From an uncultured Clostridia bacterium (GTDB taxonomy: Bacteria > Bacillota > Clostridia > Oscillospirales > Ruminococcaceae): a stretch of 36,202 nucleotides of DNA. The stretch lies in assembly GCA_947363605.1 (NCBI GenBank), contig CANAQK010000015.1, positions 1 to 36,202 on the forward strand. The letters are read 5' to 3'. Positions within the stretch are counted from its first letter, which is position 1; each line of letters begins with the position of its first letter. Position numbers and translations under genes: made by a program. The notes beneath the pieces are model-generated. The model saw only the letters and a program-made list of their open reading frames with translations, was not told where the DNA came from and did no database searches. Positions 4,999 to 10,685 of the stretch are shown in pieces.

Positions 4999-7758
4999 TC
5001 AGGACGTTGGAGCAGAGGTGTCCTTCATTTTGCAGCATTTTTTATATTTTTTTCCGCTTCCGCAGGGACAGAGGTCATTATCGCCGATATGCTCTTTACG
5101 GACCGGCTGTTTCCGAACGACCTTCTCCTGCTCGTCACCATGGAATGCCATCGTCGGATTTGCCACCTGTTCCCGCTTCATTTCTACATTTTGGCGCAGA
5201 CGGATAGATAGCAGGACACGGACTGTGTCTTCCCGGATCGAATCGATCATGGCATCGAACATATCAAAGCCCTCTTCACGATAGGCATAGATCGGATCCT
5301 TCTGGGCGTATGCACGCAGGCCGATTCCCTTTTTCAGCTCATCCATCGCGTCAATATGGTCGATCCACTTCGTGTCAACGTGCTTCAGCAAAACAATACG
5401 TTCCAGTTCACGCATCATCTCGCTTCCGAGTTCTTTTTCTTTTTCTTCATAAAGCGTTTTAGCTTTCTGAGTCAAATCAGAAATAATGTCTTTTTTCTCC
5501 AGTTTGGCACGTTCCTCGATGGTATAGTTCAGATCCTCTTCCGTGGTCAGCAACCCTAAATAATGGTCACGCAATCCTTCCAGATTCCAGTCATCATGCA
5601 CATCACCATCCGCTAAATAAAGGTTAACATCGTTTGCGATCATGCCTTCAATCATTTTCTGAATAACATCCTGCAAATTATCGTCATTCAATACCTTCAA
5701 ACGCTGCCCATAGATAATCGACCGCTGGGTGTTCATTACATCGTCATATTTCAGGACATTTTTCCGAATCGAGAAGTTCCGGCCTTCGACTTTGCGTTGC
5801 GCGGATTCAATCGTAGAAGTCAGCATCTTCATTTCAATTGGTTCATTTTCATCAAGATTGAACCGATCCATCATGGTCTGGATCCGTTCCCCGCCGAACA
5901 GGCGCATCAAGTCGTCCTCCAAGGAAAGAAAGAAGCGGCTTTCACCTGGGTCGCCTTGGCGGCCGGCACGGCCCCGCAGCTGATTGTCGATCCGGCGGGA
6001 TTCATGCCGTTCCGTGCCAATGATAAACAGCCCTCCAGCTTCACGCACCTCATCGGCTTCCGGCTTAATCTGCTCCCTGAATTTCTCCTCCAGCGCATGA
6101 TATTCTTCCCGCAGGCGAAGGATTTCCTCATCTTCCGTTTCACTATAACTGGTTGCCTGGCCAATCTGTTCGTCGTCATAACCCTTTTTACGCATTTGAG
6201 CAACAGCTAAAAATTCTTCATTGCCCCCAAGCATAATATCTGTACCACGGCCCGCCATATTCGTGGCAATGGTCACAGCGCCCTTCTTCCCCGCCTGTGC
6301 AACGATCTCTGCTTCCTTTTCGTGCTGCTTTGCGTTTAAGACTTCATGCTTAATCCCCCGCCGCTTCAGCATGGAACTCAGTAGCTCAGATTTATCAATG
6401 GAAACCGTACCAACCAGCACAGGCTGTCCCTTTTCATGGCACTTTACAACCTGGTCAACTACGGCATTATACTTCCCCTTTACCGTCTTATACACCACAT
6501 CGTCATGGTCAATCCGGATATTGGGCCGGTTCGTCGGAATCTCCACAATATCCAGCTTATAAATTTCGCTGAATTCTTCTTCCTCCGTCATTGCGGTACC
6601 CGTCATACCAGAAAGCTTATTATACAAACGGAAATAATTCTGAAAGGTGATTGTTGCCAGCGTCTTAGATTCACGCGCAACCTGAACCCCTTCTTTTGCC
6701 TCAATAGCCTGATGAAGGCCCTCACTGTACCGCCGGCCGATCATCAGTCGCCCGGTAAACTCGTCTACAATCAGGATCTCCCCATCCTTAACCACATAAT
6801 CTACATCGCGCTGCATAATCCCATGTGCGCGGATGGCCTGATTGATATGATGCTGGATGGACAGGTTTTCCGGATCCGTCAGGTTTTCAATATGGAAGTA
6901 CTCCTCCGCCTTTTTGACACCTGCCGGGGTCAATGAAACCGTTTTCGCCTTTTCATCCACGATATAGTCTGCATCGACATCCTCGTACAGTTCCTTGGAA
7001 TCTTCCTCCACAATGCGGAAAACCTTCAGATGCTTGGCAAAATTATCCGTCAAATGATACAGCTCTGTCGATTTATCCCCCGGGCCGGAAATGATCAAAG
7101 GTGTCCGTGCCTCGTCGATCAAAATCGAGTCCACCTCGTCCACAATGGCGTAATTGAATTCCCGCTGCACCATGTCCTTTTTATACGTAACCATGTTATC
7201 CCGCAGATAATCAAAGCCCATTTCATTATTCGTTCCGTAGGTAACATCAGCCGCATAAGCCGCGCGCTTTTCGTCCGAGCTCATGTCATGGATGATCAGG
7301 CCCACGGTCATACCCAGGTATTTAAAAATACGCCCCATCCATTCCGACTGATACTGGGCCAAATATTCGTTTACCGTAACAATATGCACGCCTTTTCCGG
7401 TAAGCGCATTCAAATAAGCAGCCAGAGGCGCGGTCAGCGTTTTACCCTCACCGGTTTTCATCTCAGCAATCCGGCCTTGATGCAGAACAGTAGCGCCAAT
7501 AATCTGAACCGGGAATGGCTTTTTCCCGATTGTTCTCCAAGACGCCTCGCGGAATACCGCAAATGCATCCGGCAAAATATCATCCAGCGTTTCGCCGCCA
7601 GCTAGTCTCTCTTTTAATACGCCGGTCTGAGCGCGCAGCTCTTTCCCGCGCATCGCCTCATACTTCGGCTCTAAATCCAGCACCTTTTGTTTGATCGGCT
7701 CAATTCGGGCAAGTTCCTTCTTGCTATAAGAGCCGAAGATTTTTTCCAATAATGACAT
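4999..7758 (-). CDS. secA: Preprotein translocase ATPase SecA
   Basis: SecA is the cytoplasmic motor that drives secretory proteins through SecYEG using ATP. The 919-residue product has the full architecture. The Walker A motif MKTGEGKT is at 100-107, the DEVD Walker B at 207-210, the preprotein cross-linking domain follows, the second nucleotide-binding fold includes [10 protein letters not shown], and helical wing/scaffold domains come next. The C-terminal SEC-C zinc motif [13 protein letters not shown] lies at 897-909. AGGTGAAGGA directly precedes the ATG. It is monocistronic, with its own promoter and terminator. Together with secD-secF it makes this a small secretion locus, though queT and the sugar kinase lie between. 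Confidence 0.99.
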
Positions 7759-7815
7759 TCCTTCACCTCATGTATTGTAATTGTAACTGAAACATATCAT
7801 AATTTTCCATTTCTC

Positions 7816-7844
7816 ATTATATCCGCAAAACCAGAATCTTTCAA
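7816..7844 (-). promoter_or_regulatory. Sigma-A promoter for secA
   Basis: TTGAAA (7844-7839), a 17-base spacer and TATAAT (7821-7816) lie about 58 bp upstream of the secA start. Confidence 0.8.
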
Positions 7845-7930
7845 GCTTTTTTCTAAAAGAAAATAAATTCTTCTTTTCTATCTTGTGGAAAAACGTCTTC
7901 CTTATTCCCGAATCCATCCTTGAATATACG

Positions 7931-7966
7931 CAAAAAAGGAGCTGTCCGAAAAAATGTACGGACTGG
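7931..7966 (-). terminator. Minus-strand terminator-like hairpin upstream of secA
   Basis: On the - strand, GAGC...TCCG pairs with CGGA...GCTC around a T-rich loop and is followed by CCTTTTTTG. No recognised - strand gene ends here. It may shield the secA promoter from transcription coming from the right, or mark the end of an unrecognised transcript. Confidence 0.45.
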
Positions 7967-7969
7967 CTC

Positions 7970-7998
7970 TTGCTTTCAAGGAAAATATTGTTTATAAT
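7970..7998 (+). promoter_or_regulatory. Promoter for the NifU-like/GGGtGRT operon
   Basis: TTGCTT (7970-7975), a 17-base spacer and a perfect TATAAT (7993-7998) precede a long leader of about 130 bases before the first gene. Confidence 0.75.
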
Positions 7999-8004
7999 AA
8001 AGTA

Positions 8005-8120
8005 GACACAGATTCCAGGCCGCTTTCCGGCTTGTTCTGTCCCGAAGCTGACCCTTCGGCGGTACGCGTCAAGGCGTACAGGAACCAAAATTGTAATTTA
8101 GCCCGGATGGGTTAAAATGA
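8005..8120 (+). ncRNA. Structured leader, candidate cis-regulatory RNA
   Basis: The leader contains four consecutive stems. ACAGA/TCTGT (8008-8012 with 8036-8040) encloses GCCG/CGGC (8019-8022 with 8028-8031). Then come CCGAAG/CTTCGG (8042-8047 with 8054-8059), GTACGC/GCGTAC (8062-8067 with 8074-8079), and TTAGCCC/GGGTTAA (8098-8104 with 8109-8115). The last ends just before the AAAGGAG ribosome binding site. I do not match it to a known riboswitch class. It could be a ligand- or protein-sensing element controlling translation of the two downstream genes, or simply a stable 5' UTR. Confidence 0.45.
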
Positions 8121-8133
8121 AAGGAGCAGAAAT

Positions 8134-8835
8134 ATGAACTATTCTCATGAAGTCGAGAGGATGTGTACTCTCACAAAAGGCCCCAAGCATGGTCCTGCCC
8201 CCATTCCTGAAGAAGGACGCTGGGTAAAAGCCTATAATGTTACGGACATTTCCGGTCTTTCTCACGGTGTGGGCTGGTGTGCGCCCCAGCAGGGTACCTG
8301 CAAACTCACCTTAAACGTAAAAGAAGGCATCATTGAGGAGGCATTGGTTGAAACTCTGGGCTGCTCGGGTATGACCCACTCTGCTGCAATGGCTGGTGAA
8401 ATCCTTCCGGGTAAAACTATCCTGGAAGCGCTCAATACTGACCTGGTCTGTGACGCGATCAATGTGGCTATGAGAGAAATTTTCCTTCAGCTGGTATACG
8501 GCAGAACCCAGACCGCTTTCTCCGAAGACGGCCTGCCGGTAGGCGCAAGCCTGGAAGATCTGGGCAAGGGCCTGCGTTCCCAGATCGGCACCATTTTTTC
8601 CACCACTAAAAAAGGTGTCCGCTATATGGAAATGGCCGAAGGCTATATCCAGAAAGTAGCTGTTGACGAAAACGGTGAGGCAATCGGCTATCAGTTTGTA
8701 AGACTGGGCAAAATGATGGAGGATATCCGTCACGGCGTAGACCCGAAAGAAGCTTATGAGAAAAATGTCGGCACTTACGGCCGTTTCTCTGAGGCAGACG
8801 GCGCTGTCAAATTCATTGATCCTCGCGAAGAATAA
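8134..8835 (+). CDS. NifU-like iron-sulfur scaffold family protein
   Basis: The 233-residue protein carries a NifU/IscU N-terminal-like domain in its first half. Cysteines that could ligate iron-sulfur clusters are C49 and C56 (WCAPQQGTC), C77 (LGCSGMTH) and C106 (LVCDAIN). The spacing differs from canonical IscU. The C-terminal half (about 125-233) is an extra domain absent from IscU, so this is probably a specialised relative rather than the general scaffold. It is translated from AAAGGAG 7 bases before the ATG. The GGGtGRT gene begins 32 bp after its stop, and this pair is a recurrent arrangement in Clostridia. Its biochemical role is not established as far as I know. Confidence 0.85.
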   Translation: MNYSHEVERMCTLTKGPKHGPAPIPEEGRWVKAYNVTDISGLSHGVGWCAPQQGTCKLTLNVKEGIIEEALVETLGCSGMTHSAAMAGEILPGKTILEALNTDLVCDAINVAMREIFLQLVYGRTQTAFSEDGLPVGASLEDLGKGLRSQIGTIFSTTKKGVRYMEMAEGYIQKVAVDENGEAIGYQFVRLGKMMEDIRHGVDPKEAYEKNVGTYGRFSEADGAVKFIDPREE

Positions 8836-8867
8836 AATCAGTCCCAATTAAAGGAGGTAAACCTATC

Positions 8868-9866
8868 ATGGCTAAATTTGAAGGTCAAGAGAGAAGAATG
8901 CCAAAAATCGAGAAATGTCTGGCTGAATACGGTTTCGCTACGATTGATGAAGCCAAAGATTTCTGCGAGTCCAAAGGCATCAAGGTAGAAGAAATTGTAA
9001 AAGGCGTACAGCCGATCGCATTTGAAAATGCTGTTTGGGCTTACACACTGGGTACTGCAATCGCTCTGAAAAAAGGGATTACAAAGGCTGCTGAAGCGGC
9101 TGAAGCTATCGGTATCGGTCTGCAGGCATTCTGTATCCCTGGTTCTGTAGCAGAACAGCGTGCCGTTGGCCTGGGTCACGGCAACCTCGGCGCCATGCTG
9201 CTCCGGGAAGAAACCGACTGCTTCTGCTTCCTGGCAGGCCACGAATCCTTTGCTGCTGCAGAAGGTGCAATCGGTATTGCCAGAACCGCAAATAAAGCAA
9301 GAAAAGCCCCGCTCCGTGTCATCCTGAACGGTTTGGGTAAGGACGCTGCTTACATTATTTCCAGAATCAACGGCTTTACCTATGTGGAAACCGATTTTGA
9401 TTTCGCTACGGGCGAACTGAAAGTCGTACGTGAAGTTCCGTTCTCCAAAGGCGAAAAAGCTGCTGTAAAATGCTATGGTTCCAATGACGTTCTGGAAGGC
9501 GTTGCTGTCATGAAGAAGGAAAAAGTAGACGTTTCCATCACCGGTAACTCCACCAACCCGACCCGTTTCCAGCATCTCGTTGCAGGCACCTATAAAAAAT
9601 GGGCAATGGAAAACGATAAGAAATATTTCTCCGTTGCTTCCGGCGGCGGTACAGGCCGTACCCTCCATCCGGACAACGTAGCTGCTGGCCCTGCTTCTTA
9701 CGGTTTGACTGACTCCATGGGCCGTATGCATGGGGACGCACAGTTTGCTGGTTCTTCCTCTGTTCCTGCCCATGTCGAAATGATGGGCTTAATCGGTATG
9801 GGCAACAACCCGATGGTTGGCGCTACAGTTGCCTGCGCTGTTGCAGTTGAAGAAGCAAACAAATAA
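8868..9866 (+). CDS. GGGtGRT family protein
   Basis: The 332-residue protein carries the diagnostic glycine-rich GGGTGRT at 259-265, for which the family is named. It also has conserved-looking motifs GLGHGNLGAML (about 101-111), GHESFAAAEG (124-133) and GRMHGD (about 285-290). No signal peptide or membrane helix is evident, so it should be cytoplasmic. Cysteines at about 17, 33, 89, 118, 120, 202 and 323 could bind metal but form no classic cluster motif. AAAGGAGG precedes the ATG. It shares a transcript with the upstream NifU-like gene, which suggests a role linked to iron-sulfur or metal chemistry. The actual reaction is unknown to me. A strong terminator follows. Confidence 0.9.
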   Translation: MAKFEGQERRMPKIEKCLAEYGFATIDEAKDFCESKGIKVEEIVKGVQPIAFENAVWAYTLGTAIALKKGITKAAEAAEAIGIGLQAFCIPGSVAEQRAVGLGHGNLGAMLLREETDCFCFLAGHESFAAAEGAIGIARTANKARKAPLRVILNGLGKDAAYIISRINGFTYVETDFDFATGELKVVREVPFSKGEKAAVKCYGSNDVLEGVAVMKKEKVDVSITGNSTNPTRFQHLVAGTYKKWAMENDKKYFSVASGGGTGRTLHPDNVAAGPASYGLTDSMGRMHGDAQFAGSSSVPAHVEMMGLIGMGNNPMVGATVACAVAVEEANK

Positions 9867-9896
9867 TTTTCCGAAATGATCCGGTTAAAAGCCGTC

Positions 9897-9931
9897 AAAA
9901 GAGGGCCTCTGTTTACCAGAGGCCCTCTTTT
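9897..9931 (+). terminator. Bidirectional terminator between GGGtGRT gene and nadE
   Basis: Fifteen-base perfect arms (9897-9911 and 9917-9931), GC-rich in the middle (GAGGGCCTCTG) with A- and T-runs at the ends, form a hairpin with a five-base loop. It can serve both convergent genes. Confidence 0.93.
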
Positions 9932-9956
9932 TATCAGTATTACAGGCGGGAAAACC

Positions 9957-10685
9957 TTATAAGCCATAGTTCAGCGGAAGTTCCCTTTTATGCTGAGTGC
10001 GCATATATACGGACTGAACTTTAGAACGGGTTTCCTCACTCCCCTCCCCTGTCAGAATGAATCGGTCTAAATCCGCATAGAGAATCCCCATCTCCTGCTC
10101 GTCAGTCTGACCGTCAAACAATCCGGCAGACGGCGCTTTTACGACGATATGCTCCGGGGCATTTAAATAGCGCAGAAATTCCAATACCTCGGTAGCAGTT
10201 AAATCGGCAATCGGGTTCAAATCATATCCACCGTCGCCGTATTTGGTAAAATAGCCCATCGTGCGTTCACTGCGATTTCCCGTACCGGCTACCAGATAAT
10301 TTTTGCTTTGTCCAATTGCATACAGTACCGTCATCCGAAGCCGGGGATTGATATTATTACCCGCCATTGGGGAAAGTTCACAGACCGGAGAAATCGCATT
10401 CAGCAGCATATCCTTCGCTTCAGATACATCTACTGTAACTGTATCAATCCCGAACTGCTCGGCCAGCTTTACCGCATCGTCTGTATCCTCCCCATAGTTT
10501 CGTTTGGAATGGCAGGGCATAATTACCCCCACGACGGAATCTACTGCCTTTTTGCAGAGAATGCCAACTAATGCCGAATCCTTCCCACCGCTGTTCCCAA
10601 AAACAACTCCATCCGCATGAGCATTTCGCAGCGCATTTTGAATAAAGTCAACTCGCTTCGCTATCTCCTCTTCATAATTTCTCAT
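9957..10685 (-). CDS. nadE: Ammonia-dependent NAD synthetase
   Basis: NadE converts nicotinic acid adenine dinucleotide to NAD with ATP and ammonia, the last step of NAD synthesis. The 242-residue protein is the short form without the glutaminase domain, so free ammonia is the expected nitrogen donor. The PP-loop ATP-pyrophosphatase motif SGGKDS is at 32-37. The later segment AGTGNRSERTMGYFTKYGDGG is typical of the family's deamido-NAD binding region. GAGGAGG precedes the ATG. It stands alone with its own promoter (10713-10741) and shares a terminator with the convergent GGGtGRT gene. NadK, which uses its product, is encoded at about 30 kb in the same window. Confidence 0.96.
   Translation of the reverse strand: MRNYEEEIAKRVDFIQNALRNAHADGVVFGNSGGKDSALVGILCKKAVDSVVGVIMPCHSKRNYGEDTDDAVKLAEQFGIDTVTVDVSEAKDMLLNAISPVCELSPMAGNNINPRLRMTVLYAIGQSKNYLVAGTGNRSERTMGYFTKYGDGGYDLNPIADLTATEVLEFLRYLNAPEHIVVKAPSAGLFDGQTDEQEMGILYADLDRFILTGEGSEETRSKVQSVYMRTQHKRELPLNYGL

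Follow-up and report, generated by a model that had tools for sequence, protein, structure and literature searches.

A NifU-like/GGGtGRT gene pair with conserved order, preceded in some bacteria by a fluoride riboswitch

Within a 36,202-nucleotide (nt) stretch of DNA from an uncultured Clostridia bacterium (contig CANAQK010000015.1, positions 1 to 36,202; hereafter the window), a gene for a NifU-like protein of 233 residues (8134-8835, plus strand) directly precedes a gene for a GGGtGRT protein of 332 residues (8868-9866, plus strand; open reading frame list and PF14057 profile match). In our samples the pairing is obligate and the gene order conserved, and in nine genomes from three phyla a fluoride riboswitch stands directly before the pair. 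We put at about even odds (a probability near 0.5) the reading that the two proteins form a stoichiometric two-subunit, iron-dependent metalloprotein that was drafted into the fluoride response in several lineages. A family without an assigned activity, reported to be highly expressed in gut bacteria, thereby gains a fixed partner, a link to iron and a link to fluoride, and these links make the function of the pair directly testable.

Results and Discussion

Pairing of the two genes across genomes

The sequence-only reading of the window had proposed a dedicated two-protein system, which is strongly supported by both gene adjacency and shared distribution. The NifU-like gene lies directly upstream of the GGGtGRT gene on the same strand in all 126 loci having upstream sequence, out of 128 surveyed (the window, L002-L091, L109-L114 and L126-L156); the other two, L057 and L070, begin at a contig edge a few bases before the GGGtGRT gene. 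Three of the 128 loci (L109, L148 and L155) repeat genomes under another identifier and three are IMG/VR contigs. The median gap between the genes is about 21 nt, reaching 420 nt in L150, and in L017 the NifU-like gene is split over two frames.

Among 149 genomes drawn from the window's own phylum, GGGtGRT was found in 8 and a full-length NifU-like gene in the identical 8, scoring 420-458 bits there, with other matches at 30.1 bits or less. Likewise, the same 6 of 249 genomes hold both genes in the phylum of a Succinivibrio record, which we take to be Pseudomonadota. As each of these two samples contains one genome picked for having the pair, the free counts are 7/148 and 5/248. A seventh GGGtGRT match in the latter sample (G235, L115) was set aside as chance, since it scored 19.9 bits against a cut-off of 27 and is threonine-synthase-like. 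Thus GGGtGRT occurring routinely without the NifU-like gene, which would speak against a dedicated system, was not observed in the co-occurrence survey. In further draws, each including its pair-bearing centre genome, GGGtGRT was present in 29 of 398 genomes of the window's phylum (a count that includes the positives of the first sample), in 3 of 149 from the phylum of a planctomycete record and in 6 of 149 from that of a Collinsella record. Clustering of neighbouring genes over 94 loci mostly returned frames that overlap the pair and, towards secA, local synteny; no further partner in a fixed place was recognised by eye.

Several loci depart from the usual layout. In the single-contig genome G598 (L139/L157; L157 7954-9344), the NifU-like gene breaks off near residue 143, with its three cysteines retained, and runs into a GGGtGRT frame that lacks the usual start. 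Genome G464 carries a second, divergent pair (L147/L159; GGGtGRT 526 bits) that adjoins a PrpF-like gene, identified by eye, besides a normal pair elsewhere in the genome. In Parabacteroides distasonis an open reading frame of 63 residues without a Pfam match lies between the two genes (L165:4800-4991).

Fluoride riboswitches before the pair

The Rfam fluoride riboswitch RF01734 (cut-off 34 bits) lies directly upstream of the pair in five genomes of the Pseudomonadota sample (L116-L120), two of the own-phylum sample (L125 and L146), Vibrio sp. THAF191d (L163, 60.7 bits) and Persicobacter sp. JZB09 (L168, 49.9 bits, about 57 nt upstream); in the six loci computed, it is 56-200 nt from the NifU-like start. 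In three further genomes RF01734 is farther upstream on the same strand, separated from the pair by a TauE-type gene in L124 (843 nt), by two MutS-domain genes in G598, and by a CLC channel gene plus a 470-nt gap in Persicobacter psychrovividus. G598 has five fluoride-riboswitch matches within about 5 kb, four of them above the cut-off. Two crcB genes and a DUF190 gene follow the pair in L124, L125 and L158, the second crcB of L124 being assigned by eye. The aptamers of L125 and L158 overlap with a terminator hairpin at their 3' strand, which matches the expectation for a fluoride-ON switch. The DUF190 proteins (L125:6087-6425 and L158:5578-5913) match the P-II family weakly (expect values, E, of 2e-5 and 5e-5), at or below the cut-off of that family.

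Compared with the known regulons of this riboswitch (crcB, CLC-type, eno, ppaC and mutS), some relatives of the pair sit behind RF01734 and some adjoin crcB, DUF190, MutS-domain or CLC genes, but the pair differs in being no exporter and no enzyme known to be inhibited by fluoride, and the window copy has no riboswitch. The placement of fluoride riboswitches before the pair is new in this analysis. Our literature search found no paper linking fluoride with GGGtGRT, the 2012 Science catalogue of fluoride riboswitches lying outside its coverage and possibly listing the pair, and no paper joining the fluoride riboswitch and NifU.

Whole-genome searches of 28 pair-bearing genomes, in which 126 first-look candidates were scored per genome, gave RF01734 above the cut-off in 12, and in 9 of these one match sits in the leader or gene run of the pair; in the other three (G612, G635 and G505) the match is elsewhere, away from the pair. 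As the 28 genomes were hand-picked and 8 were already known positives, 9 of 12 is no random rate, and the stronger point is single-copy placement: in G089, G125, G400, G255, G339 and G223, genomes of 3.1-5.4 Mb, the match linked to the pair is the sole one reported. In trees, riboswitch-led members fall in two deep clades (support 1.0 and 0.996-0.998), L110 and P. psychrovividus form a small clade alongside two members in which no riboswitch was found, and G598 stands apart from the other riboswitch-led members. The trees are rooted at the midpoint and so do not tell old from repeatedly gained fluoride control.

These data bear on whether the fluoride link is mere hitchhiking, the pair simply lying beside fluoride genes. 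Most members, the window included, indeed have no fluoride riboswitch, and in P. psychrovividus the gap after the CLC gene contains a terminator-like hairpin, seen by eye. However, no gene intervenes between riboswitch and pair in the nine genomes, in five of those nine the riboswitch is the only match reported genome-wide, and riboswitch-led members occupy four separate parts of the tree, which makes hitchhiking quite improbable.

Fluoride control nevertheless appears to be the exception, given that no riboswitch was found in the window's genome, in 78 of the 80 close loci, or near the pair in P. distasonis and Bacteroides finegoldii. RF01734 was not found in window positions 7700-10000 at E up to 1. 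Six riboswitch sequences served to build a covariance model, which was applied to 94 sources (the window, L002-L008, L089, L091, L120-L125 and the close loci other than L057 and L070, 78 of 80 in all) and gave matches only in L007, L120, L124 and L125. The model also recovered the Rfam sites of L157, L158, L163, L164 and L168 and is thus reasonably sensitive. An Rfam search of L126-L156 and L002-L008 added only L146; as these loci span 1.5 kb either side of GGGtGRT, a more distant riboswitch such as that in L124 would escape (L006, a short locus from the same genome, gave none).

Iron and the expression of the pair

Published induction data connect the pair with iron. Passages of PMC10434189 report that Bacteroides thetaiotaomicron BT0173-0174, annotated as GGGtGRT and NifU, drop 11- to 12.8-fold on iron depletion. 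In Clostridium pasteurianum, according to data given in PMC5395762, the GGGtGRT protein rises with iron 7.1-fold in the early phase and 2.2-fold in the late phase, and for the two spots of the NifU-related protein the increases are 2.4- and 3.7-fold in the early and 1.6- and 2.9-fold in the late phase. Chicken caecal bacteria are described as expressing GGGtGRT highly in vivo (PMC11204068). The Parabacteroides GGGtGRT neighbour is annotated 'nitrogen-fixing protein NifU', a name that appears in rumen metaproteome lists in PMC6043501 and that would there denote the same family. The iron or metallocofactor link suggested by the sequence-only reading thus gains indirect support from the induction data, while metal in the pair itself is inferred.

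Iron induction in two phyla and high in vivo expression could also be expected of a system that stores or buffers iron or iron-sulfur (Fe-S) units and is made under iron excess. Such a role seems unlikely, as fluoride-riboswitch leaders in nine genomes would be unexpected for a store and the conserved residues appear to make up one site.

The two proteins

In the predicted structure model, residues 38-128 of the NifU-like protein adopt an IscU fold, although the profile scores fall short of the curated IscU/NifU cut-offs. The window protein scores 20.4 bits against the Pfam NifU_N cut-off of 22, which two relatives narrowly exceed (26.6 and 23.8 bits), and its NCBIfam scores are all 25.1 bits or less against cut-offs of 92.5-273.3 (25.1 versus 187.9 for TIGR01999 and 20.7 versus 192.4 for TIGR03419). 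The scaffold-type cysteines noted from sequence hold up in that Cys49, Cys77 and Cys106 are conserved across the family alignment, as are His44, Asp103 and Asp107, but their setting is not canonical. A CGD motif at the first ligand and an LPPVK-type segment before the third cysteine are hallmarks of IscU/NifU_N scaffolds. Neither was found in the NifU-like protein, which reads CAPQQG and NTDLVCDA where the separate IscU encoded by the same host genome reads AKCGD and LPPAKLHC. Compared with the IscU/NifU N-terminal scaffold (PF01592, TIGR01999 and TIGR03419), the NifU-like protein therefore shares the predicted fold while differing in both motifs and in its sub-cut-off scores, and it carries an additional C-terminal half of about 105 residues. 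That half had been called unassigned and stays so: neither Pfam nor NCBIfam gives a match to residues ~129-233 at E up to 1, not even for the C-terminal Nfu domain of NifU proper, and the structure model is of low confidence in part of this half.

The window GGGtGRT protein is a full-length member of PF14057 (640.9 bits against a cut-off of 27, profile positions 1-327), a family whose model description names no activity and to which this analysis adds the fixed partner and the fluoride link. Its alignment has near-invariant Gly/His/Asp loops and no invariant cysteine, Cys118 being present in 120 of 123 sequences. A sequence search of the PDB gave chance-level matches only, and the top Foldseek matches, DHX36 and a trypanosome phosphofructokinase (E ~0.01), were not trusted.

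Given the IscU fold, the obligate adjacency and the iron-linked expression, the NifU-like protein might be a scaffold on which an Fe-S or other metal cluster is transiently assembled before being passed to a GGGtGRT enzyme. This is possible, with the chances clearly against it: the CGD and LPPVK-type motifs are absent, GGGtGRT offers no invariant cysteine as cluster acceptor, and inspection of the neighbour clusters by eye, with no profile search made, revealed no cysteine desulfurase. For the first two of these reasons, the role of assembly partner proposed by the sequence-only reading is less secure than the pairing itself.

A metalloprotein drafted into the fluoride response

The reading we favour, a two-subunit metalloprotein, dispenses with shuttling. 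In the NifU-like subunit, a rearranged IscU-type site formed by Cys49, Cys77 and Cys106 with His44, Asp103 and Asp107 would retain iron or an Fe-S unit, and GGGtGRT would contribute a Rossmann-like body with the substrate site in its near-invariant loops. The complex would be produced when iron is plentiful, and in some lineages the same operon would have been placed under a fluoride riboswitch. Fluoride binds hard metal ions, and both the iron signal and the fluoride signal fit the one idea of an iron-dependent metalloprotein complex. Fluoride may poison the enzyme, so that more of it is needed, as with enolase and pyrophosphatase, or the pair may relieve a step that fluoride blocks. Overproduction of fluoride-inhibited enzymes through the fluoride riboswitch is described for enolase and pyrophosphatase in parts of PMC5533749 and PMC11139923.

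Several points weigh against this reading. The physical complex, its metal, its catalysis and a role in fluoride stress are all inferred. The most conserved GGGtGRT loops have predicted local distance difference test values (pLDDT) below 50, so the proposed site is not visible in the model. The NifU-like and GGGtGRT distance matrices correlate only moderately (r 0.64, with no control run). Near the pair in P. distasonis (L165) and B. finegoldii (L166), in the window's genome (E up to 0.001, with 150 of 323 candidates scored) and, with the covariance model, in the 78 close loci, no fluoride riboswitch was found, so that gut members may respond to iron alone. Finally, the pair may be decaying in G598.

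More tentatively, and with the chances somewhat below even, the pair might be a non-export fluoride-tolerance module, its iron-dependent metalloprotein replacing or protecting a fluoride-poisoned step; it would then be an abundant housekeeping enzyme in gut anaerobes and fluoride-switched in marine and other bacteria. If true, this would add a non-export arm to bacterial fluoride resistance and explain an abundant gut pair of unassigned function.

The GGGtGRT 3' end as an attachment site

Phages and elements with tyrosine integrases repeatedly use the 3' end of the GGGtGRT gene as their attachment site and bring along a substitute for the C-terminal end. GGGtGRT matched 20 IMG/VR loci (L089-L108), in 14 of which only 17-64 residues from the C-terminus are present; 8 of these fragments abut a contig end, which may itself account for the truncation, and the other 6 (L097-L102) lie within a contig. 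By BLASTP, 15 of the 20 loci have a tyrosine integrase next to the gene or its fragment, and further integrases were recognised in L089 and L090 by Pfam and in L092 by eye; the remaining two are L095, which is too short, and L107, whose sequence stops at the fragment. All eight integrases checked with Pfam match PF00589, and three integrase types apparently use the site. In the bacterial loci L017 and L069, a Pfam-confirmed integrase lies 127 and 193 nt downstream of GGGtGRT, respectively. L094 and L101 are one contig, which carries two copies of the 3' end (91% identical over 292 nt); in L084, two such copies with 90% identity over 172 nt flank an element of about 3.6 kb. The L084 element (6215-9559) encodes a glycosyltransferase-like and membrane-protein set, with no integrase seen by eye, and is perhaps a prophage remnant. 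The window's own GGGtGRT gene shows no such insert.

Protein-coding attachment sites for phages are known, such as icd. The elements here likewise bring a replacement 3' gene end beside a tyrosine integrase, the differences being that the host gene is GGGtGRT and that three integrase types apparently share it.

Layout and expression signals in the window

The tandem layout, good ribosome-binding sites and private promoter read from the sequence were all confirmed in place. On the plus strand, a promoter TTGCTT-17-TATAAT (7970-7998; 9/12 consensus matches by promoter scoring) lies 135 nt 5' of the NifU-like ATG; the automated scan missed it because its -35 hexamer has only 3/6 matches. Sequence reading places ribosome-binding sites AAAGGAG (8120-8126) 7 nt ahead of the NifU-like ATG and AAAGGAGGT (8850-8858) 9 nt ahead of the GGGtGRT ATG, on the same strand, and 32 nt separate the two genes. 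An intrinsic terminator with a perfect 12-bp stem and a T-run follows on the plus strand (9900-9933), seen by eye and absent from the automated scan output. Both flanking genes are on the minus strand: 4999-7758 upstream, presumably SecA, and the convergent 9957-10685 downstream, presumably NAD synthetase, both assigned by eye. Given the private promoter, the terminator and the opposite-strand neighbours, the pair looks like its own transcription unit.

Of the 75 regions upstream of the pair that were scored (74 from the 80 close loci, plus that of the window), 57 have a promoter-like site with at least 10/12 matches, stronger than the window's own, compared with a mean of 4.5 and a maximum of 12 in 20 dinucleotide-shuffled sets. 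A Shine-Dalgarno match of at least 5/6 is present in 63 of the 75, a count biased high because start codons were picked partly by that match. Rfam gave three matches in the window leader at E up to 1, all far below their cut-offs. As the leader fold is only mildly stable (z -1.6) and the leaders of close relatives appear unrelated by eye, we propose no leader RNA here. An antisense open reading frame of 311 residues (8838-9773, minus strand) overlies the GGGtGRT gene, and comparable antisense frames occur in relatives; they are probably an artefact of codon usage.
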